From NCBI RefSeq assembly GCF_900169525.1, contig NZ_LT821239.1, positions 496,001-560,000 on the forward strand: DNA of 64,000 nt, read 5' to 3'. The stretch is from Corynebacterium pacaense. Lineage in GTDB: Bacteria > Actinomycetota > Actinomycetes > Mycobacteriales > Mycobacteriaceae. Below, one piece after another: positions 2,580 to 59,736 of the stretch; within the stretch, counting starts at the first letter, position 1; every line of letters starts with the position of its first letter. Under the pieces are notes generated by a model that had not been told where the DNA came from, did no database searches, and saw nothing but the letters and a program-made list of their open reading frames with translations. A program made the translations under genes and the position numbers.

Positions 2580-4937
2580 CTACAAACGTCTCTTGGTCCG
2601 CGCCGTCGCCTGTGCGCTCCACGGATCCTCTGGCCAGGGGTGCTTCGGGTAGCGCCCCCGCATCTCCGCCCGCACCTGTGAGTAGGGCCCCGACCAGAAG
2701 CTCGCAAGATCGTCGGTAACCGCCAATGGTCGTCCGGCGGGGGAGAGGAGATGGAACTGCACCCTCTCACCGCAGAACTCAGGCGAGGCGGCGAGTCCGA
2801 AGCATTCCTGTAGTTTCACCCGGACGATCGCATGCCCCGTCGAATAGTCGATGCGGTGCTTGTGCCCGCTGGGCACGTGCAGTGATCCCGGCGCGAGCTC
2901 ATCCATATGCGCGGCGTCGGGCCACGGGAGTAGGCGTTGGAGTGCCTGGGCCATGTTGATTCCGCTTATGGAAGCCCCGTGGGCGATCGTGTCCAGTTCG
3001 GGCCCGAGCCAGGTGTACACATCGGCGGCGTCGACATCCGGCCACGGGTCCCCGAGGTGGGCGTGGAGGAACCGGAGGCGATCCAGCAGCGAGCGCGCGG
3101 CCTCTGAGAAGGTGAACAGGGAGAGTCCGTCGCGGGCGATCGCTTCCGCCACTGCCGTCGCCGCATCCTCGACAGTGGGGGTGGTCGGGGTGGAGCTCAG
3201 TTCGATGGCCCAGGCGTGGCGGATGGTTCGGGCACGGATGCGGCCGTTGGCAAGCTCTGCGTGGGTGGTGTCGCGGACACCGAGGAGCCCAAGAGCCTGC
3301 TCCTCGCTTATGGAAGCGGCGGCGCGGATGAGGGCGCGGTCGCCGGAGCGGGAGATGTTGCCGATGGCGAGCCAGGGGGAGCCTTGAAGCTCGGTGTCCT
3401 TCAGGAGTGCACGTGTGCCGCTGGCCAGCAGGTATTCACCGCGGGTGACCCGTTTTGCGATGAGTGCAGGGAAGGCCGCGCCGGTTACCTCACCCGCCGA
3501 CGGCCGGCCGGCAACACGTGGTGCGAGTCGGCGTAGGCGGGCGACCTCGCGGTCGAAGCGCGCGCTTCCGCGCAGCCGGGTGGCCTGGGTACTGATGTTG
3601 CCGGAGGGGGCGTCGGCAAGCACGGCGAGCGTCTCGGCGGCACCTGCGCCGAACCGCAGCAGCGACGCCCCGAGCTGCGGCGCCAACGGCAGCAGCGCCA
3701 GGCGACGTCCCAGGTCGGTGATGCCATGCTTATCGACGGCCCCCAGCGCCTGCAGCGTGGACGTCGCCGCCTGCATCGCCGGCACGGGAGGAGGTGTTGG
3801 CAGCTCCGGTGTGCCCCAGCCCGCCATCCAGAGCGCCGTCTGGGTAAGATCCGCCGACTGGATCTCCGGTGTGGTGAACGGCTGGAAATGCGCGTAATCC
3901 TCCTGTGAGTAGCAACGGATCACCGTTCCCGGCCCCTCACGCCCGGCGCGGCCCGCCCGCTGATCGGCCGAGGACTGCGCGCAACTCACCGTGACCAGGC
4001 CCGTCATGCCGCGTGCGGCATCGCGACGCGGCACCCGGGAAAGCCCTGAATCCACCACCACGCGCACACCGGGGACCGTCAGTGAACTCTCCGCCAGTGG
4101 CGTGCTCACCACAATCCGCGGATCCGTGCTCGGGGTCAGGGCCCTGTCCTGCTCTGCGGCGGTGAGCCGGCCGTGCAGCGGCAGCACACTCCTCTCGCCC
4201 CGGGAGCGCAGCGTTGCGATGACCTGCTCGATCTCCCACACGCCGGGCACGAACACGAGCACCGAACCATCATGGCCAGCCGCCTGCCGTGCCACATGCT
4301 CCAGGAATCTTCTCTCCACACCCCGCTGCCCCATCCGCGGGCCGGGGGGCGGGGCGTAGATGGTGTCCACGGGGAAGATCGGGGACTGCGCTTCCAGAAC
4401 CTGTGCTTCCATAAGCGCGGCGAAATGCTGCGCATCCACGGTGGCGGACATGGCGATCACGGAGAAATCATCACGCAATTGGCTCAGCTCCGTGGTCATG
4501 CCCAGCACGAGATCGGTGTCGAGCTGGCGCTCGTGTACCTCATCGATGATCACCGCCGACACACCGCGCAACTCCGGATCGCTCAGCAGCTTCCGCACCA
4601 GCACCCCAGGGGTGAGGAACTCCACCCGCGAGCCGGGGTGATGCTCACCGCGCACTGAGAATCCGACGGTTGTTCCGATCGGGGTCCCAGCCAACTGAGC
4701 TAATCGACGCGCCGCCGCCCGCACCGCCACCCTCCGCGGCGCGGTGACCAGGATCTTCCCCTCCGTGAGCGTGTTGGCGACGCTCGGCGGGACCACCGTT
4801 GTCTTACCCGTTCCGGGAGGGGCGACGATGACGAGATTCGCCGGCGAGGTGCTGAGCGTCGTCTCCAGGCGCGGGATCAGGGTTGCCGCGGGTAGGTCGC
4901 CGGCGATGGTTGCGAGGTCGAAGGGGGTGGTGTTCAT
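2580..4937 (-). CDS. hrpB: ATP-dependent RNA helicase HrpB
   Basis: A 785-aa DEAH-type helicase of the HrpB family, cytoplasmic, presumed to act on RNA; the physiological substrate is not firmly known for the family. Visible motifs: Walker A APPGTGKT at residues 39-46, motif Ia TAPRRVAVRAAA, the DEVH box (132-135), motif III MSAT (163-166), motif V ESSLTVPGVRVVVDSG and motif VI SADQRAGRAGREGPG. The C-terminal half includes the HrpB-specific region ending RYPKHPWPEDP. Length is normal and ATG 4937 precedes the conserved N-terminus. The gene carries three exact copies of the TTCCATAAG word, two of them encoding Ile with the rare ATA codon (ASIS). It is followed, eight bases upstream of its start, by the end of the PH-domain gene, so the two are probably co-transcribed. 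Confidence 0.95.
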   Translation of the reverse strand: MNTTPFDLATIAGDLPAATLIPRLETTLSTSPANLVIVAPPGTGKTTVVPPSVANTLTEGKILVTAPRRVAVRAAARRLAQLAGTPIGTTVGFSVRGEHHPGSRVEFLTPGVLVRKLLSDPELRGVSAVIIDEVHERQLDTDLVLGMTTELSQLRDDFSVIAMSATVDAQHFAALMEAQVLEAQSPIFPVDTIYAPPPGPRMGQRGVERRFLEHVARQAAGHDGSVLVFVPGVWEIEQVIATLRSRGERSVLPLHGRLTAAEQDRALTPSTDPRIVVSTPLAESSLTVPGVRVVVDSGLSRVPRRDAARGMTGLVTVSCAQSSADQRAGRAGREGPGTVIRCYSQEDYAHFQPFTTPEIQSADLTQTALWMAGWGTPELPTPPPVPAMQAATSTLQALGAVDKHGITDLGRRLALLPLAPQLGASLLRFGAGAAETLAVLADAPSGNISTQATRLRGSARFDREVARLRRLAPRVAGRPSAGEVTGAAFPALIAKRVTRGEYLLASGTRALLKDTELQGSPWLAIGNISRSGDRALIRAAASISEEQALGLLGVRDTTHAELANGRIRARTIRHAWAIELSSTPTTPTVEDAATAVAEAIARDGLSLFTFSEAARSLLDRLRFLHAHLGDPWPDVDAADVYTWLGPELDTIAHGASISGINMAQALQRLLPWPDAAHMDELAPGSLHVPSGHKHRIDYSTGHAIVRVKLQECFGLAASPEFCGERVQFHLLSPAGRPLAVTDDLASFWSGPYSQVRAEMRGRYPKHPWPEDPWSAQATARTKRRL

Positions 4938-6773: not shown

Positions 6774-7466
6774 GTGCCCACGCTTTTCGACGCCCCCGGC
6801 GCCGACCTCCCGCGCCCGCCGCGGGAGGTCACCGACGGTGTTGTCCACCTCCCGGGCTTTCTGGACCTGCCCACCCAGCGATCGCTGGTAGCTGAGGCCC
6901 GTCGGATCGCACGCAGCGCCGCGGGCACGCCCTTTGCGATGGTCCGACCCCGCCTGCGCAGCGGACAGATGAGCGTGTACATGCTTTCGCTCGGCCGCTA
7001 CTGGAAATCCCATCCCTACCGCTATGTGGAGGAGCTCGAGGGAATGCGGGTGCCGCCGATTCCGGAATCCTTCCATAAGCGAACGCGGGAGGCCCTTGAG
7101 GCGGCGGGACGTTTGAGCGGATCGCTGGCCGCCTGGTCGGGGAGCTTCCGTGCGGAGGCCGCGTTGGTGAACTACTACCCGCCCGGCTCGACGATGGGGA
7201 TGCACCAGGACGCCAATGAGCTTTCCGAGGCCCCGGTGATCTCCCTGTCCATCGGTGACACGGCGTTGTTCCGCCTTGGTGGAACCGAGAACCGCAACCG
7301 GCCCTGGAATGAGATTCCGCTGCTCAGCGGTGATCTGATTGTTTTCGGGGGAGCACACAGACGCGCCTTCCACGGTGTGCCCAAGGTGGAGGAGGGCACC
7401 GCCCCGGACGGTTGCGGTCTGGCTGAGGGTCGGATCAACATCACCATTCGCCAGGTGGATCTCTAA
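6774..7466 (+). CDS. alkB: AlkB-family DNA/RNA demethylase
   Basis: A 230-aa 2-oxoglutarate/Fe(II)-dependent dioxygenase that repairs 1-methyladenine and 3-methylcytosine. Iron ligands are visible in MGMHQDANE (HxD) and the distal AFHGV His; the 2-oxoglutarate-binding Arg lies in RINITIRQ, and NYYPPGSTM precedes the first ligand as in AlkB. GTG 6774 is chosen because GGAGG at 6761-6765 is correctly placed and the family-like N-terminus PTLFDAPGADLPRPP starts there; ATG 6738 is also open but poorly supported. It is followed by the 3-methyladenine glycosylase gene 53 bases downstream, making a small alkylation-repair pair. Confidence 0.93.
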   Translation: MPTLFDAPGADLPRPPREVTDGVVHLPGFLDLPTQRSLVAEARRIARSAAGTPFAMVRPRLRSGQMSVYMLSLGRYWKSHPYRYVEELEGMRVPPIPESFHKRTREALEAAGRLSGSLAAWSGSFRAEAALVNYYPPGSTMGMHQDANELSEAPVISLSIGDTALFRLGGTENRNRPWNEIPLLSGDLIVFGGAHRRAFHGVPKVEEGTAPDGCGLAEGRINITIRQVDL

Positions 7467-15297: not shown

Positions 15298-16772
15298 TCC
15301 TTGTCATCGGGGCCGGTGTTGCGGGCCTGAGCTGCGCACTTGGCGTCGCCGACGCGGGCGGGGAGGTCACCCTGATCCGACCCGATTCCGCTTATGGAAG
15401 CACGCGCCTGGCCCAGGGCGGCATCGCCTCGGCGATAGCCACTGGCGACAGCCCCGCCGCACACCTGGCGGATACTGTCGCCGCAGGCCACGGACTTGTC
15501 GATGCGGTGGCTGCGCGCCAGTTGGTGGAGGATGGCGTGCAGGCCGTGCGTGCTCTCATCCGGGCAGGTATGCCCGTCGACCGCGATACCGCCGGCCACC
15601 CGCTACTCGGCCTGGAGGCCGCGCACGGTCGGCCCCGGATCATCCACTGCGGCGGCGACCGAAGCGGCGCGGTCCTCCACGACCATCTTCTCGCGCAGAT
15701 CGATGACGGAATCACGGTGCGCGAGGGTGTGTCCGCCGACTCGCTGCTGCTTCGAGGTGGCCGCGTCACCGGCGTCCGGCTCACGGACGGCACCACCCTG
15801 AGCGCGACTGCGGTGGTCCTGGCCACGGGCGGCTACGCGGCCCTCTATCCGTCCAGCTCCAATGATCCCACCACCCGTGGGCAGGGCATCGCCCTGGCGG
15901 CACGGGCAGGCGCGGTGATCGCCGACATGGAGTTCGTGCAGTTCCACCCCACGGTGATTGACGCCCCCACCCCCGGTCACCGTGGTTATCTCGTCTCAGA
16001 GGCGGTGCGCGGCGCGGGAGCGGTGCTCCTCGATTCCTCCGGCCACCGTTTCATGTCCGATCATGATCCACGTGCCGAACTTGCCCCCCGTGATGTGGTG
16101 TCCGCCTCCATAGACGCGGTGCTGCGTGAGCGTGGCGACGCCCACGTATTTCTTGATGCCACGCGTGTGCCGGACCTGGCGACCAGGTTCCCGCAGATCA
16201 CCTCGGCCACCCGCGCGCTCGGGCTGGACTGGACCGTTGATGCGATCCCCGTTGCGCCGGCCGCGCACTACACCATGGGCGGAGTGGCCACGGACCTCGA
16301 TGGCCGTACCAGCGTCCCTGGGCTGTTCGCGGTGGGGGAAGTGGCGTCGACAGGCGTGCACGGCTCCAACCGACTCGCCTCGAACTCGCTGCTGGAGGGC
16401 CTGGTCTTCGGTCGGCGCGCGGGACGTGCCGCTTGTGGAACGTGGACCTACCGCGGCGCGGCTCTGCCCGAGCTGATCCGCACAGCGGACACACTGACCG
16501 TTTCCCCTCAACTGACCACGGATGAACGGGCCATCTCCTCCGCGATCGGCGAGCACCTGGGCATTGTCCGTGACGCCTCGGGCATTGCGAGCGCGGCGCG
16601 GACCTGCTCCTTCCATAAGGGAAATTCGGCGCTGGTGGGTACGCTCATCGCCGCTGCCGCCGCGGCCCGCACCGAATCCCGCGGCGCCCACCGGCGCAGC
16701 GACCACCCCGGAACCGATCCGAAACAGGCCAGGCGCACCGCGCTGACCGTCAAGGAGATCACGGCATGCTGA
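15294..16772 (+). CDS. nadB: L-aspartate oxidase NadB
   Basis: A 492-aa FAD enzyme oxidising L-aspartate to iminoaspartate for NadA. The FAD-binding start ILVIGAGVAGLSCALGVADAGGEVTLIRPD is at residues 2-30. Other signatures are STRLAQGGIASAI, THRG-type substrate block HCGGDRSGAVLHDHLL, EFVQFHPTV, HYTMGGVATDLDGRTSVPGLFAVGEVASTGVHGSNRLASNSLLEGLVFGRRAG. The C-terminal helical domain appears shortened relative to E. coli NadB. ATG 15294 overlaps the nadA stop; the 3' end overlaps nadC by seven bases. To my knowledge C. glutamicum lacks nadB, so its presence indicates complete de novo NAD synthesis from aspartate in this organism. Confidence 0.95.
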   Translation: MILVIGAGVAGLSCALGVADAGGEVTLIRPDSAYGSTRLAQGGIASAIATGDSPAAHLADTVAAGHGLVDAVAARQLVEDGVQAVRALIRAGMPVDRDTAGHPLLGLEAAHGRPRIIHCGGDRSGAVLHDHLLAQIDDGITVREGVSADSLLLRGGRVTGVRLTDGTTLSATAVVLATGGYAALYPSSSNDPTTRGQGIALAARAGAVIADMEFVQFHPTVIDAPTPGHRGYLVSEAVRGAGAVLLDSSGHRFMSDHDPRAELAPRDVVSASIDAVLRERGDAHVFLDATRVPDLATRFPQITSATRALGLDWTVDAIPVAPAAHYTMGGVATDLDGRTSVPGLFAVGEVASTGVHGSNRLASNSLLEGLVFGRRAGRAACGTWTYRGAALPELIRTADTLTVSPQLTTDERAISSAIGEHLGIVRDASGIASAARTCSFHKGNSALVGTLIAAAAAARTESRGAHRRSDHPGTDPKQARRTALTVKEITAC

Positions 16773-17608
16773 CACCCGCCCACACCCAATCCGCCGTCCG
16801 CGCGGCGCTTATGGAAGACGCGCCCTGGGGCGATGTCACCGCCCGCCTGGTGATCAGCGACACCGCCACCATGACAGCTGCGATCCGTGCCAGGGAACCC
16901 GGCGTCTTCGCCGGTGGCGCGGTGCTCACCGAGGCTTTCCGCCAGGTGGACCCGCGTATCACCGTGTCCGCACTGCGTGCCGACGCCACCGCCTTCGCCC
17001 CCGGCGACGTTCTCGCCGAGGTCACCGGACCCGCCCGCGGCATCCTCACCGCCGAGCGGGTGGCGCTGAACTTTGTGCAGCGGATGAGCGGGATCGCGAC
17101 ACTGACCTCGCAGTACGTCGCCGAGGTGGAGCGGGTGGGCGCACATGCTCGCATTGCCGATACCCGGAAGACCGTTCCGGGATTGCGCGTCTTCGACAAG
17201 TACTCGGTGACTGCCGGTGGTGGCAGCAACCACCGCTTCGGACTCTCGGATGCGATCATGGTCAAGGACAACCACCTCGCCGTGCTCGGCGGGGACATCA
17301 CCGCGGCGCTGATCGAGCTCAAGCGGCGCGCCGGGCACACCACCTCCATCATCGTTGAGGTCGATCGCCTTGAGCAGATTGACGCGGTGCGCGCAGCCCG
17401 GCCGACCGGGATTCTGCTGGACAATTTCTCCATAAGCGATCTGCGCGCGGCCGTGGCACTGATTGACGGGGCGATGACCGTGGAGGCCAGTGGCGGCGTC
17501 ACCCTGGGCACCGTCGCCGAGATCGCCTCCACTGGCGTTGATGTGATATCCGTCGGTGCGCTCACCCACTCGGTGCGCGCACTGGACCTGGGGTTGGATG
17601 CGCGGTGA
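16766..17608 (+). CDS. nadC: Nicotinate-nucleotide pyrophosphorylase (quinolinate phosphoribosyltransferase)
   Basis: A 280-aa enzyme converting quinolinate and PRPP to nicotinate mononucleotide. Visible signatures: EDAPWGDVTARLV, LTAERVALNFVQRMSGIATLT, ADTRKTVPGLRVFDKYSVTAGGGSNHRFGLSDAIMVKDNHL, ILLDNFS, VEASGGVT and STGVDVISVGALTHS. It sits between nadB (7-bp overlap) and nadS (4-bp GTGA overlap) in one operon under NdnR. An exact TTCCATAAG-complement word encodes its LME near the start. Confidence 0.96.
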   Translation: MLTPAHTQSAVRAALMEDAPWGDVTARLVISDTATMTAAIRAREPGVFAGGAVLTEAFRQVDPRITVSALRADATAFAPGDVLAEVTGPARGILTAERVALNFVQRMSGIATLTSQYVAEVERVGAHARIADTRKTVPGLRVFDKYSVTAGGGSNHRFGLSDAIMVKDNHLAVLGGDITAALIELKRRAGHTTSIIVEVDRLEQIDAVRAARPTGILLDNFSISDLRAAVALIDGAMTVEASGGVTLGTVAEIASTGVDVISVGALTHSVRALDLGLDAR

Positions 17609-19391: not shown

Positions 19392-21329
19392 CTACCAGAT
19401 CACCACGCGGTCCGGGGGTGCGATGTACATGGGCGCATCCGCGGGAACGTCGAAGGCCTCATAGAGCTCCGCGATGTTGCCCGCGATGAGATTGCAGCGG
19501 AACTCGGCGGGAGAGTGTGGGTCGATGGCCAGGTACTGCACGGCCATTTCGGGCCGGATCTTGGTGCGCCACACCCTGGCCCAGGACAGGAAAAGGCGCT
19601 GGAGACCGTTGTACTCGTGTTCCGCCAGTTCCGGTGACCCACCATCCGCGGTGAACGAGGCCACGGGGGAGGTCTCGAAGGTCAGTGAGCGGTCGGCGAG
19701 ATAGCGGCGGTAGGCCACCACCGCGATTCCGAGCCCGCCGAGGTCACCGATGTTCTCCCCGAGGGTGAAGGCGCCGTTGACCCCCGAGGTTTCTATGCCG
19801 CCGGTTTTTAGCACCGAGGGCACCAGTCCGTTGAACTGTTCCACCAGTCGGTCGGTCAGTGCGGTGAAGGCGGCGCGGTCCTCATCGGTCCACCAGGAGT
19901 TGAGGTTGCCATCGCCGTCGTACTGGCTGCCCTGGTCATCGAAGCCGTGGCCGATCTCGTGGCCGATGACCGCGCCGATGGCACCGAAGTTCTCCGCCGC
20001 CTCCGCCCCTGGATCGAAGAAGGGGGCGCGCAGGATGGCGGCGGGAAAGGTGATGTCGTTGACCACGGGGTTGTAGAAGGCGTTGACGGTCTGTGGGGTG
20101 GTCACCCATTCTTCACGGTCGGCTGGCCTGCCGATCTTGGACAGTTCATAGTCGTGCAGGAAGGCGGAGCCATGGCGCACATTGTCCAGCAGGTCCGCCC
20201 CGCCCGCCCCGAATTCAAGGCCCTCGTAGGAGCGCCATTTGTCCGGATATCCGATCTTGGCGTTGAACCTGTCCAGCTTCTCCAGTGCCCGCTGCCTGGT
20301 CTGCGGGGTCATCCATGCGAGCTCACTGATCCGCTCCCGGTAGGCCGCGACCAGGTAGTCGACCAGGGTGAGCATCTCCTCCTTGGAGCTGGCGGGAAAG
20401 TGCTCGGCGACGAAGATCCTTCCGATCTCCTCACCGACCATCCGCTCAGCCAGACCCACGGCCCGCTTCCACCGATCCTTCTGCTCGGTGGCTCCGGACA
20501 GTTTCGTTCCATAGAAATCGAAGTTGGCCTGGGCGATCTCCTCGTTGAGCAGGCCGGCGCGTGAGCGCAGAATGTGCCAAGTGGCCCACAGCTGCCAGTC
20601 CGCGAGGCGGTCATCGCTGAGCATCCCAGCCAGATGAACGATGTAGGAGGGCATCATGTTCACCAGCCGGTGGTCAGGCAGCTGTGACCCCTCGAGCAGT
20701 GCACGGATCCGCGTCGGCAGCTCCTCGAACTGCACGGGATTGTAGGTGGCCACGGCGTCACGGGTTTTCACCACGTCCCAGTGCCCCCGGGCGATCTCCG
20801 TCTCCAGGGCGAGAATGCGTGTCGACGCCTCCTCCGGCGTCAGCCCAAGCAGGCGTGCGGGTTCGAGGAACCCGAGCATCCGGGTGATGTGGCTTCCATA
20901 AGCGGCGCGGACCTCCTCATGGGACGGCTCCCGATAGTAGGCCTCATCGGGCAGGCCGAGACCTGCCTGGAAGAGATAGGCGATCGCCTCGTCGGAGGAG
21001 GAGTCTTTCTCCACCCAGAATGCGATGGGTGCCGCCGCACCCTCACGGTCGAGTTCCCCCAGCACCCTGGCGAAGCTGTCGGCGTCGCTGACGCCGAGTT
21101 TGTCCAGGTCGGGATCCAGTACCGCGATTCCGGCGGCGTTGATGCCCTCGGTGTCCATGAAGGATGCGTAGAGGGTGCCGGCGCGGCCGTCGTCAGCATT
21201 GACGATGTCGTGGACGTCCTCCTCCGCATCGTCGCGAAGCTTATGGAAGGTACCGTCCACAGCGCGGTCGTCGGGGATGATGTGGGTGTCCAGCCACGGG
21301 CCGTTGACAAAACGATAGAGATCTTTCAT
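19392..21329 (-). CDS. M13-family zinc metallopeptidase (neprilysin/PepO-like)
   Basis: A 645-aa peptidase. It has HEIGH (residues 457-461, in VIGHEIGHGFDDQGSQ) with the third zinc ligand Glu in ENIGDLGG (about 525), and the family blocks VNAFYNPVVNDITFPAAILRAPFF and the C-terminal RCNLIAGNIAELYEAFDVPADAPMY. There is no signal peptide or membrane anchor, so it is probably cytosolic like other corynebacterial M13 enzymes. ATG 21329 (MKDLYRFVNGPWLDTH) is preferred over GTG 21338. Two exact copies of the TTCCATAAG word lie within it, in different frames (AYGS and FHKL). Confidence 0.95.
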   Translation of the reverse strand: MKDLYRFVNGPWLDTHIIPDDRAVDGTFHKLRDDAEEDVHDIVNADDGRAGTLYASFMDTEGINAAGIAVLDPDLDKLGVSDADSFARVLGELDREGAAAPIAFWVEKDSSSDEAIAYLFQAGLGLPDEAYYREPSHEEVRAAYGSHITRMLGFLEPARLLGLTPEEASTRILALETEIARGHWDVVKTRDAVATYNPVQFEELPTRIRALLEGSQLPDHRLVNMMPSYIVHLAGMLSDDRLADWQLWATWHILRSRAGLLNEEIAQANFDFYGTKLSGATEQKDRWKRAVGLAERMVGEEIGRIFVAEHFPASSKEEMLTLVDYLVAAYRERISELAWMTPQTRQRALEKLDRFNAKIGYPDKWRSYEGLEFGAGGADLLDNVRHGSAFLHDYELSKIGRPADREEWVTTPQTVNAFYNPVVNDITFPAAILRAPFFDPGAEAAENFGAIGAVIGHEIGHGFDDQGSQYDGDGNLNSWWTDEDRAAFTALTDRLVEQFNGLVPSVLKTGGIETSGVNGAFTLGENIGDLGGLGIAVVAYRRYLADRSLTFETSPVASFTADGGSPELAEHEYNGLQRLFLSWARVWRTKIRPEMAVQYLAIDPHSPAEFRCNLIAGNIAELYEAFDVPADAPMYIAPPDRVVIW

Positions 21330-44953: not shown

Positions 44954-47900
44954 GTGAAGAGAGAAGGCCTCTACAACCCGGCATTCGAGCATGACGCCTG
45001 TGGAGTGGCATTCGTCGCCGATATCCACGGTCGCGCGAGCCGCAGCATTGTGGACAAGGCGATCCGCGCACTGGTCAACATTGATCACCGCGGTGCGGCA
45101 GGAGCAGAGAAGAACACCGGTGACGGTGCCGGCATCCTCCTGCAGATCCCCGACGGCTTCTACCGCGCCGTGGCCGCCGAGGAGGGCATCACCCTGCCCG
45201 GGGCGGGGCACTATGCCACCGGTATCGCATTCCTTCCCTCGGCCCGTATGGCCATGCTCGACGCCCGGCGTGGCATCGAGAGGATCGCTGAGCAGGAGGG
45301 CGCCACCGTTCTCGGTTGGCGCGCCGTCCCGGTGGACGCCCGCGAACTCGGTTCGATGGCCAAGGAGGCCATGCCGAGCTTCCACCAGATCTTCCTTTCG
45401 GTGGAGGGCAAGGAGGGCATTGAACTCGACCGCGTGATGTTCTTCATCCGCAAGCGCTGCGAGCGGGAACTGGGCACCACCAACGGTGTGGAAACGGCCT
45501 ATTTCCCATCCCTGTCGGCCCGCACCATCGTCTACAAGGGAATGCTCACCACATTGCAGCTGGAGGGCTTCTTCCGCGATCTGCAGAATCCGCTTATGGA
45601 AACCGCGATCGCCCTGGTGCACTCACGGTTCTCCACCAACACCTTCCCCAGCTGGCCGCTCGCCCACCCCTACCGGCTCGTGGCGCACAACGGTGAGATC
45701 AACACCGTCCGCGGCAATGAGAACTGGATGCGCGCCCGGGAGGCGCTCATCGAGTCCAGTCACCTCGGTCCACTGAACAAGGTCCTGCCTATCTGTACGC
45801 CGGAGGCCTCGGATACCGCCCGCTTCGATGAGGCGCTAGAGTTGCTGCACCTTGGTGGCTACTCCCTGCCGCACGCGGTGGCCATGATGATCCCGCAGGC
45901 GTGGGAGCACAATGGAACCATCGACCCGAAGCTCAGGGACTTCTACGAGTACCACTCCTGCCTTATGGAGCCGTGGGACGGGCCGGCGGCGCTGGCATTC
46001 ACCGACGGTCGCTTCGTCGGCGCGGTGCTGGACCGCAACGGTCTCCGCCCCGGCCGAATCTGGATCACCGACGACGGCCTGGTGGTCATGGCCTCCGAGT
46101 CCGGCGTGCTCGATCTGGACCCCGCCCACGTGATCAAGCGGACCAGGGTGCAGCCTGGCCGGATGTTCCTGGTGGATACCCAGGAGGGGCGCATCATCGA
46201 GGATGAGGAGATCAAGGAGAACCTGGCCACCGCCAACCCCTACGGTGAATGGATCAACGACAACTTCGTCCACCTTGACGGGCTGCCACAGACCCGCTAC
46301 GAGTACATGCCCCATGACCGAGTGGTGCTGCGCCAGCGCGTCTTCGGCATCACCGAGGAGGATGTGGATCTCCTGATTCAGCCGATGGCCCTCTCCGGCA
46401 CGGAGGCCATCGGTTCCATGGGATCGGACACCCCCATCGCCGCGATCTCCCAGCGGCCGCGGATGCTCTATGATTTCTTCGCCCAGCGCTTCGCCCAGGT
46501 GACCAACCCGCCGCTGGACTCCATCCGGGAGAAGCCGGTGACCAGCATGTACACCCTGCTGGGTGCACAGTCCGATGTGCTCACCCCTTCGGCGGACGCC
46601 GCACGGAGGATCCGTCTGGATTCACCGATCATTGACAACCACGAGCTGGCCACCCTCATCCATGCCGATGACCACGGTGAATGGGATTCCTTCGGTGCAG
46701 CGGTGATCTCCGGTCTCTACCCCGTCGCCCACCACGGTGCGGGCATGAAGGCGGCCATCGCCAGGGTTCGCCGTGAGGTTTCCGAGGCGATCCGCCAGGG
46801 CAGGTCCCTGATCGTGCTCTCCGACCGTGAATCCGATGAGCGCCTGGCGCCCATTCCCGCCCTGCTGCTGACATCCGCGGTCCACCAGTACCTGGTCCAG
46901 CAGCGCACCCGAACTAGATGCTCGCTGGTCGTGGAGTCCGGTGATGCCCGCGAGGTGCACCACCTGTCCATGCTGATCAGCTTCGGTGCCGACGCAATCA
47001 ACCCCTACATGGCCTTCGAGACCATCGATGAGCTGCGGATCAAGGGTCAGCTGGGAGACCTCGACCTTGACGGCGCCTCCCGCAACTATGTTCGCGCGGC
47101 CACCACCGGTGTGCTCAAGGTGATGTCGAAGATGGGTATCGCCACAGTCTCCTCCTACCGAGGCGCACAGCTTGCCGACGTCACCGGTCTGCACCAGGAA
47201 CTCCTGGACTCCTACTTCGGCGGCATCGACTCCCCGATCTCCGGCATCGGTCTCGAGGAGATCGCCGCCGACGTCGAGTCCCGCCACCGCAGCGCCTTCC
47301 TCCCGCGCCCCGAGGAGCACGCCCACCGTGAGCTCGACCTGGGCGGGGAGTACAAGTGGCGGCGCGAGGGTGAGTACCACCTGTTCAACCCGGAGACCAT
47401 CTTCAAGCTGCAGCACGCGACGAAGACGGGCAGCTACGAGATCTTCAAGGACTACACCCGAAAGGTCGATGACCAGTCGCAGCGACTGGGCACCATCCGT
47501 GGCCTGTTCGAGTTCAGCACGGACCGTCAGCCGATTCCCCTGGATGAGGTGGAGCCTATCGAATCGATCGTCAGGCGTTTCTCCACCGGCGCGATGTCCT
47601 ATGGAAGCATTTCCGCCGAGGCCCACGAGGTGCTGGCGATCGCCATGAACCGCCTGGGCGGAATGTCGAACTCCGGCGAGGGCGGCGAGGATGCGCGCCG
47701 CTTCGACGTCGAGCCCAACGGTGACTGGAGGCGTTCCTCCATCAAGCAGGTCGCCTCGGGACGATTCGGTGTGACCAGCAACTACCTCAACAACTGCACC
47801 GACATCCAGATCAAGATGGCACAGGGCGCCAAGCCTGGTGAGGGCGGTCAGCTTCCGCCGAACAAGGTCTACCCCTGGATCGCGGAGGTCCGGATCACCA

Positions 47901-49480
47901 CCCCGGGTGTCGGCCTGATCTCCCCGCCCCCTCACCACGATATCTATTCCATCGAGGACCTGGCTCAGCTGATCCACGATCTCAAGAACGCCAACAAGGA
48001 TGCCCGCATCCACGTCAAGCTGGTTGCCGAGCAGGGTGTGGGAACTGTCGCCGCGGGAGTGTCCAAGGCGCACGCCGATGTGGTGCTGATCTCCGGCCAT
48101 GACGGCGGCACCGGCGCCTCGCCGCTGACCTCCCTCAAGCACGCCGGCGGCCCCTGGGAGCTCGGTCTGGCCGAGACCCAGCAGACGCTGCTGCTCAACG
48201 GTCTGCGCGACCGTATCCGGGTGCAGTGTGACGGCCAGCTCAAGACCGGCCGTGACGTCGTCATCGCCGCGCTGCTCGGCGCGGAGGAGTTCGGTTTCGC
48301 CACCGCGCCACTGGTCGTCGAGGGCTGCATCATGATGCGTGTGTGCCACCTCGACACCTGCCCCGTGGGCGTCGCAACGCAGAATCCGGAACTTCGTAAG
48401 AAGTTCACCGGAAAGGCCGAGCATGTGGTCAACTTCTTCACCTTCATCGCCGAGGAGGTGCGCGAGTACCTGGCGCAGCTGGGCTTCCGCACCGTCGACG
48501 AGGCCGTCGGACAGGCGCAGGTCCTGCGCAAGCGCGCCAATGCGGCACCCCATCTCGATCTCAGCCCGATCTTCCACCGCCCCGCGACCCCGCACTTTCC
48601 GGAGCAGGACGTCCGCTGCACCACCACGCAGGAACACGCCCTGGACAAGGCCCTGGACAATCAGATCATCTCCGCGGCAGCGGACACCATCACCAGGGCG
48701 GCGGCCGGTGTGAACGCACGGATCACCCTTGACTACCGCGTCAGCAACGTCAACCGTTCGGTGGGGACCATGCTCGGTTCCGAGCTGACCCGCGCCGCCG
48801 GTGCGGCCGGGCTGCCCGATGACACCATCACCCTCAACCTCACCGGCTGTGCGGGCAACTCCTTCGGCGCCTTCCTGCCCGCGGGAATCACCATCAACCT
48901 GACCGGTGACGCCAATGACTTCGTGGCCAAGGGCCTCTCGGGTGGACGGATAATCATCCGCCCGGACTCCCGTGCGCCCAAGCAGCTCAAGACCAACCCG
49001 GACATCATCGCCGGCAACGTCCTGGGCTACGGAGCCACCAGTGGTGAGATGTTCATCGCGGGTCAGGTCGGCGAACGCTTCTGCGTCCGCAACTCCGGTG
49101 CCACGGCGGTGGTCGAGGGAATCGGCAACCACGGCTGCGAGTACATGACCGGTGGCCGGGCCATCGTCCTCGGACCGATCGGGGAGAACTTCGGCGCAGG
49201 TATGTCCGGCGGAGTCGCCTTCGTTGTCAACGGACCGGGTCTGCGGGAGAAGATCAACCCGGAGCTCGTGGAGCTCGAGGACCTCGCCGCAGACGAGATG
49301 CTCGAGGTCGATGAACTGATCTCCCGCCACATCGCACTGACCGGCAGCCCCACGCAGTACCGCGCCTCGGACCTGATCAAGGTCATGCCCCGGGACTACA
49401 AGAAGGTGCTCGGAATCATCGAAACCGCAACAGCACAGGGTGAGGACCCTGCTGTCAAGATCATGGAGGCAGTGAGCTAA
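44954..49480 (+). CDS. gltB: Glutamate synthase (NADPH) large subunit
   Basis: A 1508-aa protein transferring the glutamine amide nitrogen to 2-oxoglutarate. GTG 44954 (preceded by AAGGTGAG) gives [20 protein letters not shown], which places the N-terminal nucleophile Cys at position 16 behind a 15-residue propeptide, as in the family; longer TTG/GTG starts upstream are disfavoured. Domains in order: class II amidotransferase, central domain, FMN-binding synthase barrel ([19 protein letters not shown]), the 3Fe-4S cysteines C1125, C1131, C1136 ([19 protein letters not shown]), and the C-terminal GXGXG beta-helix ([14 protein letters not shown]...GGRAIVLG). Overlaps gltD by one base (TAATG). 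Confidence 0.97.
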
Positions 49481-51000
49481 TGGCCGATCCACACGGATTC
49501 CAGAAATACACCCGCGCCGAGCCCGCGCACCGACCGGTGCCACTGCGTCTGCTCGACTACCGCGAGGTCTACGAGAAGGCCCCGGCGGGGCAGATCGAAG
49601 AACAGGCAGCACGCTGCATGGACTGCGGAGTGCCCTTCTGCCACGAGGGCTGTCCCCTGGGCAACATCATCCCGGAGTGGAACGACCTGGTACGTCAGGG
49701 CAGGTGGAAAGAGGCCTACGACAGGCTCCACGCCACCAACAACTTCCCCGAGTTCACCGGTCGGCTGTGCCCCGCGCCCTGCGAGGGTTCCTGTGTCCTG
49801 GCCATCAACGATGATGCCGTGACCATCAAGAACGTTGAGCTCGCCATCGTCGAGCACGCTTTCGAGAAGGGCTGGGTGGAGCCGGTGAAGCCCACCTTCG
49901 ACACCGGCCTGACCGTCGCCGTCGTGGGATCGGGTCCCGCCGGGATGGCAGCGGCCCAGCAGCTCACCCGTGCCGGGCACCGCGTCGTGGTATTCGAGCG
50001 CGACGACCGTATCGGCGGTCTGATGCGCTACGGGGTGCCCGAGTACAAGATGGAGAACCGCTGGATCGACCGTCGCATCGCACAGATGGAGGCGGAGGGC
50101 ACGCAGTTCCGCGTCAATTCCTCACCGCGGGCCGCGGAACTCGCACTCTATGACGCCATCGTCCTGGCCACCGGCACCCCCGTCCCGCGACCGCTGAAGG
50201 TCGAGGGGGCCGATCTTGACGGCATCTACCCCGCCATGGAGTTCCTCACCGCACAGAACCACGTCAACGAGGGCGACATCAACACCACGCCCATCGACGC
50301 CCGCGGCAAGAAGGTGGTCATCATCGGCGGCGGCGACACCGGCACCGACTGCTTCGGCACCGCACTGCGCCAGGGCGCGGCGTCGGTCACCCAGTTTGAC
50401 ATCCGGCCACGCTCACCCTTCACCCGTGCCGAGACCACCCCCTGGCCGATGTACCCCAACCTGTTCCGTACCGCCACCGCCCACGAGGAGGGCGACTACC
50501 TGATCACCGGGGACGAGTCCGCCGACGAGATCGCGGCCCTGGGGCTGGCGTCCCGGAACCCCGCATCCTCCATGGGTGAGCGGAGGTTCGCGGTGAATAC
50601 CGTGTCATTCCAGGGGGAACAGGGCCATGTGACCGGGCTGATCGCCAACCAGATCCGCATCGTGGCGGGAAAGCGCGAACCCATCGAAGGCACGGAGTTT
50701 CCCTTCGAGGCCGACCTCGTCCTCATCGCCCTCGGCTTCAGCGGTGCCGAACAGGGCGGCCTGGCGCACGATCTGGGCGTCACCTTCGATGAGCGTGGCC
50801 GCATGATCCGCGACAACGAATACCGCAGTCCCACCAATTCCCGCGTCTACGTCGCCGGTGACAACGGCCGCGGACAATCCCTCATCGTCTGGGCGATTGC
50901 GGAGGGCCGCGCCTGCGCCGCCGCCGTCGACGCCGACCTCATGGGAGAGACCGCCCTGCCGATCGCCGTCACTCCGCAGGACGCGCCGTTGTCGGTCTAG
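49480..51000 (+). CDS. gltD: Glutamate synthase (NADPH) small subunit
   Basis: A 506-aa FAD/NADPH subunit feeding electrons to GltB. The N-terminal Fe-S cysteines are in CMDCGVPFCHEGCPLGNIIPEWN and LCPAPCEGSCVL. The FAD-binding segment VAVVGSGPAGMAAAQQLTRAGHRVVVFERDD is followed by GGLMRYGVPEYKM, the NADPH-binding VVIIGGGDTGTDCFGTALRQGA and the C-terminal RVYVAGDNGRGQSLIVWAIAEGR. Starts on the gltB stop, so the two are stoichiometrically coupled. TAG at 50998 is followed two bases later by the TTCCATAAG hairpin. Confidence 0.97.
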   Translation: MADPHGFQKYTRAEPAHRPVPLRLLDYREVYEKAPAGQIEEQAARCMDCGVPFCHEGCPLGNIIPEWNDLVRQGRWKEAYDRLHATNNFPEFTGRLCPAPCEGSCVLAINDDAVTIKNVELAIVEHAFEKGWVEPVKPTFDTGLTVAVVGSGPAGMAAAQQLTRAGHRVVVFERDDRIGGLMRYGVPEYKMENRWIDRRIAQMEAEGTQFRVNSSPRAAELALYDAIVLATGTPVPRPLKVEGADLDGIYPAMEFLTAQNHVNEGDINTTPIDARGKKVVIIGGGDTGTDCFGTALRQGAASVTQFDIRPRSPFTRAETTPWPMYPNLFRTATAHEEGDYLITGDESADEIAALGLASRNPASSMGERRFAVNTVSFQGEQGHVTGLIANQIRIVAGKREPIEGTEFPFEADLVLIALGFSGAEQGGLAHDLGVTFDERGRMIRDNEYRSPTNSRVYVAGDNGRGQSLIVWAIAEGRACAAAVDADLMGETALPIAVTPQDAPLSV

Positions 51001-51002
51001 GC

Positions 51003-51039
51003 TTCCATAAGCGGATCGGCTGCCCGCGCGCTTATGGAA
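51003..51039. terminator. Inverted pair of TTCCATAAGCG words forming the gltD/GCS2 convergent terminator
   Basis: TTCCATAAGCG (51003-51013) and its complement CGCTTATGGAA (51029-51039) make an 11-bp perfect stem with a 15-base loop. It begins two bases after the gltD stop; the second arm contains the TAA stop (51032-51034) and last codons of the convergent gene. Confidence 0.85.
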
Positions 51040-52516
51040 CGTCCCAGGTGTGCACCGGATCGCCGGTGGCCTGGTTGGCCAGGTAGAGCCTGAGCATCGT
51101 GGCCAGCGCCTCCGCGCGGCCGGCTGAACCCGGGGTGCTCCCGGGTGCCTCCACCCGGCCCAGGGTCCGCAACTGCCAGGTGGCCCCGTTCTGGCGGCTG
51201 CGTGCGCGGGCGTCGATAATGCCCAGATAGAGGTCGATCAGGTCGGAATCCACCTCCAGTCTTTCCAGTCCCTCCCGCGCCTGCGGCAGAAGGTGGTCAC
51301 AGACCAGGTCCGCCACGTTGACCTGACCCAGGGTCGGCCAGGTCATCCGCGCGAACAATCCGGAACGGGCCCCGGAGAGGAAGTTCTTCTCCGCGTCGGC
51401 GAAGGTGAGCCGCGACCACACCGGCCGGTTCTGCTCCGCAAGGTACTTGACCAGACCGTAGTAGAACGCGGCGTCGGCAACGATGTCCGTTGGGGTTGGG
51501 CCCGCGGGGAGCAGGCGGTTTTCCAGACGCAGGTGGGATCGCTGCTCGCCGGGGGCGTAGATGGGCCGGTTCCACCTCCAGACCGTTCCGTTATGGAGGT
51601 TGAGGTAGTGCAGGGCGGGGGAGCGGCCCCTCATCATCGGCGTGCCCGACAGGGCCCGCGACTCGGCGATAAGGGGGGAGAAGTAGCGGACGTTCTCCTC
51701 AAAGAGGTCAAAGACGCTGGTGATCCACCGTTCACCGAACCAGACCCGGGGCCGGACCCCCTGGGTGACCAGCTCGGGGGTGCGGGTGTCGATCGACTGC
51801 TGGAACACGGGAATGCGGCTTTCGTGCCAGACGCGTCGTCCCAGGAACAACGGTGAGTTCGCGCTGAGAGCCGCCTGCACACCCGCGATCGCCTGTGAGG
51901 CGTTCCAGGCGTCGGCGAAACGGTTGGGGGCCAGTTGCAGATGGAGCTGGATCGAGGTGCAGGTGGATTCGGGAGAGATGTCGGCGAAGTCCTGCACCAC
52001 GTGCTCGCGGTCGGCGATGTCGATGTGGACAAGTTCGCCACGGCTTTCCATAACCGCGTTGTTGAGCGCGTTGTACCGGTTCTCCTGGGTCATCCACAGG
52101 CCGTCGCCCAGGAACTCGGGGGTGATGGTGGGCAGCGTGCCGATCATCGCCACTCCGGCCCCCTGTGTCGCCGCGGACGCCCGCACCTGATTCAGGCGCG
52201 AGACCAGCCCCGCCTCCAGTCGTTTCAATCCGTCCCCCTGCACCGACAGGGGAGGATGGTTCATCTCGACGTTGAAGCTTCCGATCTCGGACTGGAACTC
52301 CTCGTCGAGTCCGGCGAGCACCTCCCGGTTCAGACGCGCCGGTTGCATGTCGGAGTCGATGAGGTTGAGTTCGAGCTCCAACCCGATGGATCCGTGGTCA
52401 TCGAAATCGGACCTCTGCAGATGCCGGTCGAAGATCTCGAGATCCTCTGCGAGCAGCTGCCGGTACTGGGTGCGCTGGCGCGGGGTGTACCTGTCCGAGG
52501 AAACTGATTCGCCCAT
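51032..52516 (-). CDS. Glutamate-cysteine ligase family (GCS2) protein
   Basis: A 494-aa carboxylate-amine ligase. Family segments: DDHGSIGLELELNLIDSDMQPA, EIGSFNVEMNHPPLSV, IGTLPTITPEFL, MTQENRYNALNNAVMESRGE, SPESTCTSIQLHLQLAPNRFADAWNASQAIAGVQAALSANSPLFLGRRVWHESRIPVFQQSID and YLNLHNGTVWRWNRPIY. Such enzymes join glutamate to an amine such as cysteine; in actinobacteria, which lack glutathione, gamma-glutamylcysteine may serve other thiols. ATG 52516 (MGESVSSDRYTPRQ). The last codons and stop lie in the hairpin shared with gltD. Confidence 0.87.
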   Translation of the reverse strand: MGESVSSDRYTPRQRTQYRQLLAEDLEIFDRHLQRSDFDDHGSIGLELELNLIDSDMQPARLNREVLAGLDEEFQSEIGSFNVEMNHPPLSVQGDGLKRLEAGLVSRLNQVRASAATQGAGVAMIGTLPTITPEFLGDGLWMTQENRYNALNNAVMESRGELVHIDIADREHVVQDFADISPESTCTSIQLHLQLAPNRFADAWNASQAIAGVQAALSANSPLFLGRRVWHESRIPVFQQSIDTRTPELVTQGVRPRVWFGERWITSVFDLFEENVRYFSPLIAESRALSGTPMMRGRSPALHYLNLHNGTVWRWNRPIYAPGEQRSHLRLENRLLPAGPTPTDIVADAAFYYGLVKYLAEQNRPVWSRLTFADAEKNFLSGARSGLFARMTWPTLGQVNVADLVCDHLLPQAREGLERLEVDSDLIDLYLGIIDARARSRQNGATWQLRTLGRVEAPGSTPGSAGRAEALATMLRLYLANQATGDPVHTWDVP

Positions 52517-58704: not shown

Positions 58705-59736
58705 TCACGGGCGCAGCTCCAACCGGAGCATGGCGGCCGCCGGATCAGTAATCGAGAAACCCATCTCACTGTGCACCCTGATCGATTCACTGTTCCTCCC
58801 GGGGATCAGCGCGGCGGCGCCAGTGAACCCACCCTGATCCCTCATGAACTCCAGCAGCAGCGCCAGCGAGACCGCCTCGGCGTCCGGAGCAGCCCTGTCC
58901 GGGTCCACCCGCACCTGAACCAGCGGCACCCCGTCGCCCGGGCTCCTCTCGAAGCCGACGATCCCGATGGGACGGTCCGTCCCCTCGGCGATGACCGCCA
59001 GGACGGTGTAGGCAGCCGGATCCATCCCACCTTCCATAAGCGGATCCGGCGCAGAGGGATCGCCCGCGGTGATCCTGCGCAGTGAGTGCGAACCGGTTCC
59101 GGGGCGGCTGCGGTGGACATCCAGATCCTCGATCACCGTGGACTCGTCCTCGACCACGCCCTCGCTGCGGATCACCCCCTCGACCGTACGGATGATGATG
59201 CCCAGATCATCGCGCAGCGTGCCGTGCCGGGCGTACTCCGCGTCGATCGCAAGTCGTTCATCCCAGCCGAGAAGGTTGCGTCCCCCGACCTGTGCGGCAC
59301 CGGTGATCCCGGGCCTGACCTCGTGGCGCCTGCGTTCAAGGTCGGTATAGAAGGGCAGGTAGTGCACGAGCAGGGGGCGGGGACCGACCAGCGACATCTC
59401 CCCCCGAAGCACATTGATCAACTGCGGAATCTCGTCCAGGCTCGATTTCCTCAGCAGTCTGCCGAAGGCGGTCAGGCGCTCACCGTCGGTCAGGATCGCG
59501 CCGGAGGCGGTGGTTTCGGGCAGCATCGAGCGGAACTTCAGCAACTCGAAGGGCTGCTCATCACGTCCGATCCTGTTCTGCCGGTAGAGGACGGGGCTGC
59601 CCATGAAGATCCGGACCAGGACGGCGGTCACCGCCCCGGCCGCAAGCGTCAGCGGAGCCGTCGCGAGGATCAGGGCCGTGTCGATCACCCTTTTCGCACG
59701 CAGACGCCCCCGCCCGGCGGACACGGTGCCTCTCAT
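58705..59736 (-). CDS. Phosphoglycosyl transferase fused to a GNAT acyltransferase domain
   Basis: A 343-aa two-domain protein. Residues 1-~200 form a PglC-like monotopic sugar-phosphate transferase: KRVIDTALILATAPLTLAAGAVTAVLVRIFMGSPVLYRQNRIGRDEQPFELLKFRSMLPE with the signal-anchor helix, then KSSLDEIPQLINVLRGEMSLVGPRPLL and VRPGITGAAQVGGRN. Residues ~225-343 are GNAT-like: AAYTVLAVIAEGTDRPIGIVGFERSPG, LVQVRVDPDRAAPDAEAVSLALLLEFMRD and IRVHSEMGFSI. It would attach the first sugar phosphate to undecaprenyl phosphate and perhaps acylate the amino sugar. ATG 59736 overlaps the ATP-grasp stop. Confidence 0.85.
   Translation of the reverse strand: MRGTVSAGRGRLRAKRVIDTALILATAPLTLAAGAVTAVLVRIFMGSPVLYRQNRIGRDEQPFELLKFRSMLPETTASGAILTDGERLTAFGRLLRKSSLDEIPQLINVLRGEMSLVGPRPLLVHYLPFYTDLERRRHEVRPGITGAAQVGGRNLLGWDERLAIDAEYARHGTLRDDLGIIIRTVEGVIRSEGVVEDESTVIEDLDVHRSRPGTGSHSLRRITAGDPSAPDPLMEGGMDPAAYTVLAVIAEGTDRPIGIVGFERSPGDGVPLVQVRVDPDRAAPDAEAVSLALLLEFMRDQGGFTGAAALIPGRNSESIRVHSEMGFSITDPAAAMLRLELRP

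Follow-up and report, generated by a model that had tools for sequence, protein, structure and literature searches.

The window, the whole stretch of 64,000 nucleotides of Corynebacterium pacaense analyzed here (home genome, G000; contig C12), carries gltD and a convergent glutamate-cysteine-ligase-like gene (hereafter GCS2-like), the start of the latter being that given by a home-made gene finder. Two head-on copies of the word TTCCATAAGCG lie at the junction of these genes and pair with each other at 11 of 11 positions (Table 1). As stated in the initial annotation, this perfect 11-bp stem begins two bases past the gltD stop (TAG at 50998-51000, followed by GC), and its second arm provides the TAA stop codon of the opposing gene. 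The RNA fold predicted for a 63-nt stretch has a free energy of -25.7 kcal/mol (z -1.85), moderately better than shuffled sequences, of which 12 in 200 were equally stable. A perfect 11-bp stem alone is not rare, six being listed, at four distinct places, in the 64 kb for loops of 3-30 nt; the unusual part is the repeated word in both arms. A canonical Rho-independent terminator was considered and rejected, since the stem is present but no T tract follows 3' of the hairpin on either strand. In two relatives without the word array described below (G228 and G091), gltD is followed by an ordinary hairpin and its T run, so that the 3' end of this gene is a place for a terminator. The word hairpin is absent from the gltD junction of G073, G070 and G083, three species with the array.

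Table 1. Position of the hairpin, its flanking genes, the word copies of the window and the gene at the centre of the array (window coordinates unless a contig is given)
Feature	Position	Strand	Remark
DUF222/HNH gene, array centre	C12:433392-434747	-	61 kb left of window, 113 kb from hairpin
Word copy, outer array	2963..2973	-	
Word copy	3305..3315	-	
Word copy	4407..4417	+	
Word copy	7071..7081	+	
Word copy	15389..15399	-	
Word copy	16806..16816	-	
Word copy	20894..20904	+	
Word copy inside gltB	45591..45601	-	
gltD, glutamate synthase small subunit	49480..51000	+	TIGR01317, 598.9 bits, cut-off 447.7
Left hairpin arm, word TTCCATAAGCG	51003..51013	+	
Hairpin loop, 15 nt	51014..51028	.	
Right hairpin arm, word	51029..51039	-	Contains TAA stop of GCS2-like gene
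GCS2-like gene, convergent with gltD	51032..52516	-	Weakly matched in NCBIfam, 24.6 bits (cut-off 332)
Word copy	59032..59042	+	

Within the window, 11 copies of the word were counted where 0.01 would be expected; the 3.03-Mb genome contains 90, as opposed to three of the reversed word. Contig C12 carries 84 of the 90 exact words, 40 of them within 75 kb (415-490 kb). With dnaA at C12:283 kb, the cluster lies on one arm and peaks 130-210 kb right of dnaA; a second, weak zone was found past oriC, 335-425 kb to the left of the central gene described below, and ca. 2.1 Mb beyond the origin region are almost devoid of words. A domain centred on dnaA or on parS, exact copies of which occur at four places in C12:223-235 kb, was discarded since no exact word occurs in the interval that includes both (C12:138-308 kb). 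The copies on C12 are distributed over both strands (40 plus, 44 minus), and no strand bias was detected on the right arm (32 of 72 plus, P 0.41). Among 55 copies in C12 400-580 kb, 46 are genic, mostly in two reading frames (SIS in sense, LME in antisense), and nine intergenic. Searching the literature with the letters of the word returned nothing related among the matches listed. Positions 725-2038 of the window (minus strand) hold pieces of an ISL3-like transposase gene, recognized by eye from the translation.

The genus was surveyed for the word in 242 Corynebacterium genomes. Exact 12-mers were counted 80 times in G000, 18 times in G073, five to six times in G070 and G083, and zero to two times in all others. 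A scan of named genomes using the neighboring PhoH led to C. gallinarum (L028, with the coordinates of G083) and to an uncultured Corynebacterium (L027, the same as G219), and from de novo k-mer counts in these two loci a relaxed form emerged, C-Y-TCCATA-R-GCG; a 21-kb stretch of L028 has 20 copies of CTCCATAAGC alone, where 0.02 would be expected. The relaxed word was used as YTCCATARGCG, with the core TCCATA. It was counted 141 times in G000, 78 in G073, 52 in G070, 49 in G083, 14 in G219 and 12 in G081, with at most six in the rest; in G081 the words listed are scattered, and no DUF222 match was present among the matches listed. In G073, G070 and G083 the words lie right of dnaA, in DNA syntenic with G000. 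Ten-mers fell between -300 and +162 kb of dnaA in 45 of 46 cases in G073 and 9 of 10 in G070, and the sampled remainder of both genomes was near zero. Each array word is a solitary 11-mer whose flanks are not shared with other copies. The excess of words over Markov expectation was at least 10^18 in six of six array stretches (-log10 P 18-35) and did not exceed 10^10.9 in any of 30 control stretches, the highest control score (10.9) stemming from parS.

Several other repeated elements were noted in these genomes. A second frequent word, CGTCGANAAGC, is evenly spread at ca. five copies per 20 kb on both strands in stretches of G000, G073 and G070; its 159 copies in three array regions include 38 intergenic ones and 80 in one antisense reading frame. 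It could reflect codon usage or be a genome-wide word, and was dropped as a dialect of the array word owing to its even distribution along the chromosome. G073 (L122) contains a 12-bp satellite, TTCCATAATGGC, resembling the array core, in seven head-to-tail copies (C1:2705667-2705762); an apparent second centre at 2.70 Mb of this genome consists mostly of this satellite and was rejected. On contig C3 of G070, the DnaA ATPase model matched weakly at seven additional places, several with the same score; these are probably a repeated insertion-sequence ATPase.

Alignment of the five array species on phoH located the centre of the array outside the window. The 4-kb bin holding a DUF222/HNH gene contains 13, 25, 20, 17 and 25 copies of TCCATA in the five species, against about one per 4 kb elsewhere, and in 1-kb bins the maximum (5, 9, 8, 10 and 9) falls on the 5' half of this gene. 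From there, word density declines gradually across distances of tens to hundreds of kb; in G000, exact words per 10 kb number 10 to the right and 8 to the left within 5 kb of the gene, and 0.5 and 0.06, respectively, at 160-320 kb. DUF222 genes in general were discarded as array centres, since 20 other DUF222 loci in 16 genomes showed no array (best -log10 P 8.8). A graded array in five species argues that the word is a functional element, as proposed initially. By contrast, its identification as an uptake sequence was not upheld, the words being graded around one locus and confined to five of the 242 genomes of the genus.

The protein encoded at the centre matches DUF222 (PF02720) with 56.7 bits (cut-off 24.4). 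Its HNH motif is intact: residues H367, H368, N382 and H391 together with C352, C357 and C387 are invariant in 22 aligned members, all 22 of which match both DUF222 and HNH (alignment A2, prepared without L161, a near copy of L155, and without L165 and L166); the Pfam HNH score of the G000 member is 18.4 bits, below the cut-off of 21.4. A first structure model had a pLDDT of 42, and a deeper alignment of 22 sequences gave a pLDDT of 83 and a pTM of 0.72. In the latter, helices 77-85 and 89-103 can be read as a putative helix-turn-helix. All five orthologues share its residues A82, Q83, H84 and D86, which are present in at most 12% of 17 paralogues and are among 47 such positions protein-wide. 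A Foldseek search with the model returned nothing at E <= 0.001. In a second structural comparison, the top five matches were Noc on its site and four ParB proteins, with Z 7.2-7.8 (next 6.1), all aligning 96-103 residues across positions 48-180 with rmsd 2.4-2.7; the C-terminal part gave weaker matches to HNH nuclease structures. The modeled N-terminal domain may thus resemble the DNA-binding domains of Noc and ParB, a Z below 8 possibly reflecting chance or a common arrangement. Sequence profile comparison with the ParB of the same genome gave no signal, and PADLOC defence models gave none at E <= 0.01 in the two of five orthologues scanned.

The distribution of this gene was compared with that of the array. 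Scoring up to seven best candidates per genome, full-length orthologues (61-64% identity) were found beside G000 in G073, G219, G083 and G070, with none more among the matches listed for the 242 genomes, and all five orthologue-bearing genomes carry the array. The next best protein among the matches listed was a partial one with 53% identity, with no array at its locus. DUF222/HNH genes as such are present in at least 136 of the 242 genomes, as judged with one query. Five relatives (G051, G066, G091, G062 and G228), which we take to be the C. glutamicum-like group, have phoH (83-84%) at the same place and a GltD of 83-85%, the GltD of array species G073, G083 and G070 scoring 80-81% in the same search. 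At their phoH loci, the DUF222 gene and the TCCATA peak are both absent (2.5-7 copies per 20 kb), and no substitute word was found. In G066, G091 and G062, doxX and bioB come immediately after the 2-hydroxyacid dehydrogenase gene, and array species have the DUF222 gene in between; in G228 the dehydrogenase gene is followed by bioB, and in G051 it was not found in the stretch examined. TCCATA occurs in phoH plus the dehydrogenase gene 9, 11, 6, 10 and 9 times where the DUF222/HNH gene is present versus 0, 0, 0, 0 and 1 times where it is absent, a rate ratio of 44; in G070 the dehydrogenase gene was split by the gene caller and its TCCATA count of 2 is partial. The contrast is smaller for bioB (3, 2, 2 and 2 versus 3, 0, 0, 0 and 0), array-free G051 with three copies matching the array species. 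In a four-protein tree, from which G112 was left out, the five array-free genomes form one clade (support 100) and G073, G083, G070 and L027 another (100), with G000 placed beside both with a support of 69. Because this placement is weakly supported, the difference may reflect either gain or loss, and the co-occurrence in five related genomes may represent a single event.

Exact words are rarely found at the same place in different species, being kept in 2 of 26 cases from G000 to G073 and 2 of 11 in the reverse comparison. Within 5 kb of the gene, the core TCCATA was retained in 20/31, 20/22, 9/13, 13/28 and 7/17 cases, against 4/16, 4/14, 0/5, 0/10 and 0/8 for control hexamers. Beyond 20 kb its retention was near control in four of five comparisons, the exception being G070 to G073, in which distant words were kept as often as near ones (7/14; 7/9 beyond 60 kb). 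Of the 52 ungapped sites compared with array-free G091, a single base differs in 28, and the protein is altered in 32 (18 distinct places). Usage of the rare isoleucine codon ATA rises in the peak from 2.9% to 7.7% in G000 and from 2.2% to 8.1% in G070. Judged from these alignments, words arise mostly by substitution in aligned codons, often at a cost to the protein. Retention near the gene, turnover far from it and gain by substitution imply that the words are not inherited repeats and that their upkeep depends on proximity to the gene. DNA specific to G000 (C12:435000-445250) contains 14 copies of TCCATA and seven exact words. The word was also seen in G000 genes missing at this place from the four other array species, both in this segment and left of 430 kb; by eye, these genes appear transporter- and carotenoid-like.

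Head-on pairs of the word recur at gene ends. Head-on copies within 40 bp of each other formed three pairs, versus 0.17 expected from the local density of words (P 0.0006 with jitter of +-3 kb, in a test picked after the data had been seen). In the five array regions, 7 of 25 head-on TCCATA pairs closer than 50 bp lie at convergent gene ends, versus 0 of 24 in the opposite arrangement (Fisher P 0.0096), convergent gaps making up 2.6% of the DNA. The seven pairs represent three junction types (gltD/GCS2-like, ClC/PnuC-type and phoH/dehydrogenase) and are not all independent, some being common to related species and one being counted twice. An exact pair at C12:695834/695874 (L009:10834-10874), outside that set, constitutes a fourth junction, at which two convergent genes both read into the word and one of them ends in CCA-TAA. 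The suggestion that inverted pairs concentrate 3' of genes was thus borne out, the gltD pair being one of several. From their placement, we conclude that head-on words appear to have been taken up locally as terminator-like hairpins.

Taken from sequence evidence, TTCCATAAGCG is probably the recognition word of an array centred on the DUF222/HNH gene outside the window and marking a protein-bound local domain. The DUF222/HNH protein would bind the word via its putative helix-turn-helix domain. Numerous weak sites surrounding the gene that encodes it would keep the protein close to oriC in a local nucleoprotein domain, comparable to the use that ParB, Noc or RacA make of their sites. The farther a site lies from the gene, the weaker the selection for it would be, in parallel with its contact with the centre. 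An HNH nuclease located there might be held in check, or its nicking could lead to local recombination. Head-on words between convergent genes would yield a two-way terminator-like element, as a by-product rather than as the purpose of the word. A more specific proposal, that a ParB/Noc-like DUF222/HNH protein evolves a graded word field around its own gene, in any DNA that surrounds it, either as a nuclease-based centromere- or occlusion-like domain or as a one-locus gene drive, is tentative and seems possible rather than probable.

A different role for the same gene would be that of a selfish nuclease driven by the words as a transfer or recombination signal of this locus, similar to DUS or Chi. 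Uptake, nicking or recombination would be favoured for DNA with the gene and the words, and words in its vicinity would spread along with the gene. The intact HNH nuclease at the centre, a decay over tens of kb resembling that of recombination tracts, the gain of words near the gene by DNA of different origin and the reuse of head-on pairs as hairpins, as in DUS in the available text of PMC2397512 and PMC3630211, are consistent with such a signal; however, the tail extends several hundred kb, the strand bias is missing and centre words are conserved in place, which makes this explanation not very likely. It is also unlikely that the array is read by another protein, a RacA-, Noc- or MatP-like organizer encoded elsewhere, with the DUF222/HNH gene merely lying inside: in each of the five species the peak coincides with this gene to ca. 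1 kb, and the array is present or absent along with the gene, although the one-arm, origin-proximal cluster is like that of RacA ram sites in the available text of PMC4949633, and genus-wide profiling covered neighborhood genes only.

A genome-wide transformation signal with inverted pairs as terminators, that is, a DNA uptake sequence, would likewise be a short word on both strands, genic and intergenic, with inverted pairs at gene ends (here at few independent junctions). The ca. 2.1 Mb of G000 that are nearly empty of words, and the likewise empty samples of G070 and G073, render it very improbable. As to plain repeats, whether mobile, satellite or compositional noise, the existence of the seven-copy satellite TTCCATAATGGC in G073 at 2.7057 Mb speaks for them, but the array words have no shared flanks and are mostly born by substitution in aligned codons, and their Markov excess sets the six array stretches apart from the controls, so that this explanation is hardly credible.

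The preferred reading, a protein-bound domain around the DUF222/HNH gene, was compared with known chromosomal words. MatP-matS consists of palindromic words marking one chromosomal domain on the terminus side; the array also marks one domain, but on the origin side and with non-palindromic, graded words. KOPS and Chi are oriented words whose strand bias is not shared by the array (32/72 plus). Neisserial DUS likewise form head-on pairs at gene ends that give terminator-like hairpins, whereas the array word is confined to one zone. ParB-parS and Noc-NBS are similar in that short words surround the gene of the DNA-binding protein close to oriC. Unlike the array word, parS is a 16-bp palindrome, TGTTTCACGTGAAACA; G000 has its own ParB and exact parS elsewhere, and the array comprises 50-140 graded copies as against about ten parS, its candidate reader bearing a C-terminal HNH nuclease. 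In C. glutamicum, ten parS lie in 35 kb, according to the available text of PMC7083940. Many sites on one arm near oriC are also found for RacA of B. subtilis, the ram sites of which lie mainly within the 250 kb left of oriC in the part of PMC4949633 available, the array differing by its sharp peak on one gene. By analogy, the anatomy of the array would be that of a dedicated protein with origin-proximal sites, like parS, NBS and ram.

According to the available text of PMC10589994, the REP13E12 repeats of Mycobacterium tuberculosis are DUF222/HNH genes. The protein at the array centre belongs to this family, 20 other loci of which have no array. No known role for DUF222/HNH proteins was found among the matches listed for literature on DUF222 with HNH or on 13E12, and no account of such a word array among those listed for Corynebacterium motifs, DUF222/HNH or 13E12. 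The array suggests that a few Corynebacterium species have a chromosome-marking system not described before. It offers a ready-made assay, with about a hundred words, one centre and near relatives without both, and would be a naturally occurring example of proteins being reshaped by selection on DNA words, within a zone defined solely by proximity to one gene. If the nuclease is the point, the array system would be categorically new; and if the more specific proposal of a graded word field evolved by the protein is true, it would provide the first biology for the REP13E12/DUF222 family, which fills actinobacterial genomes.
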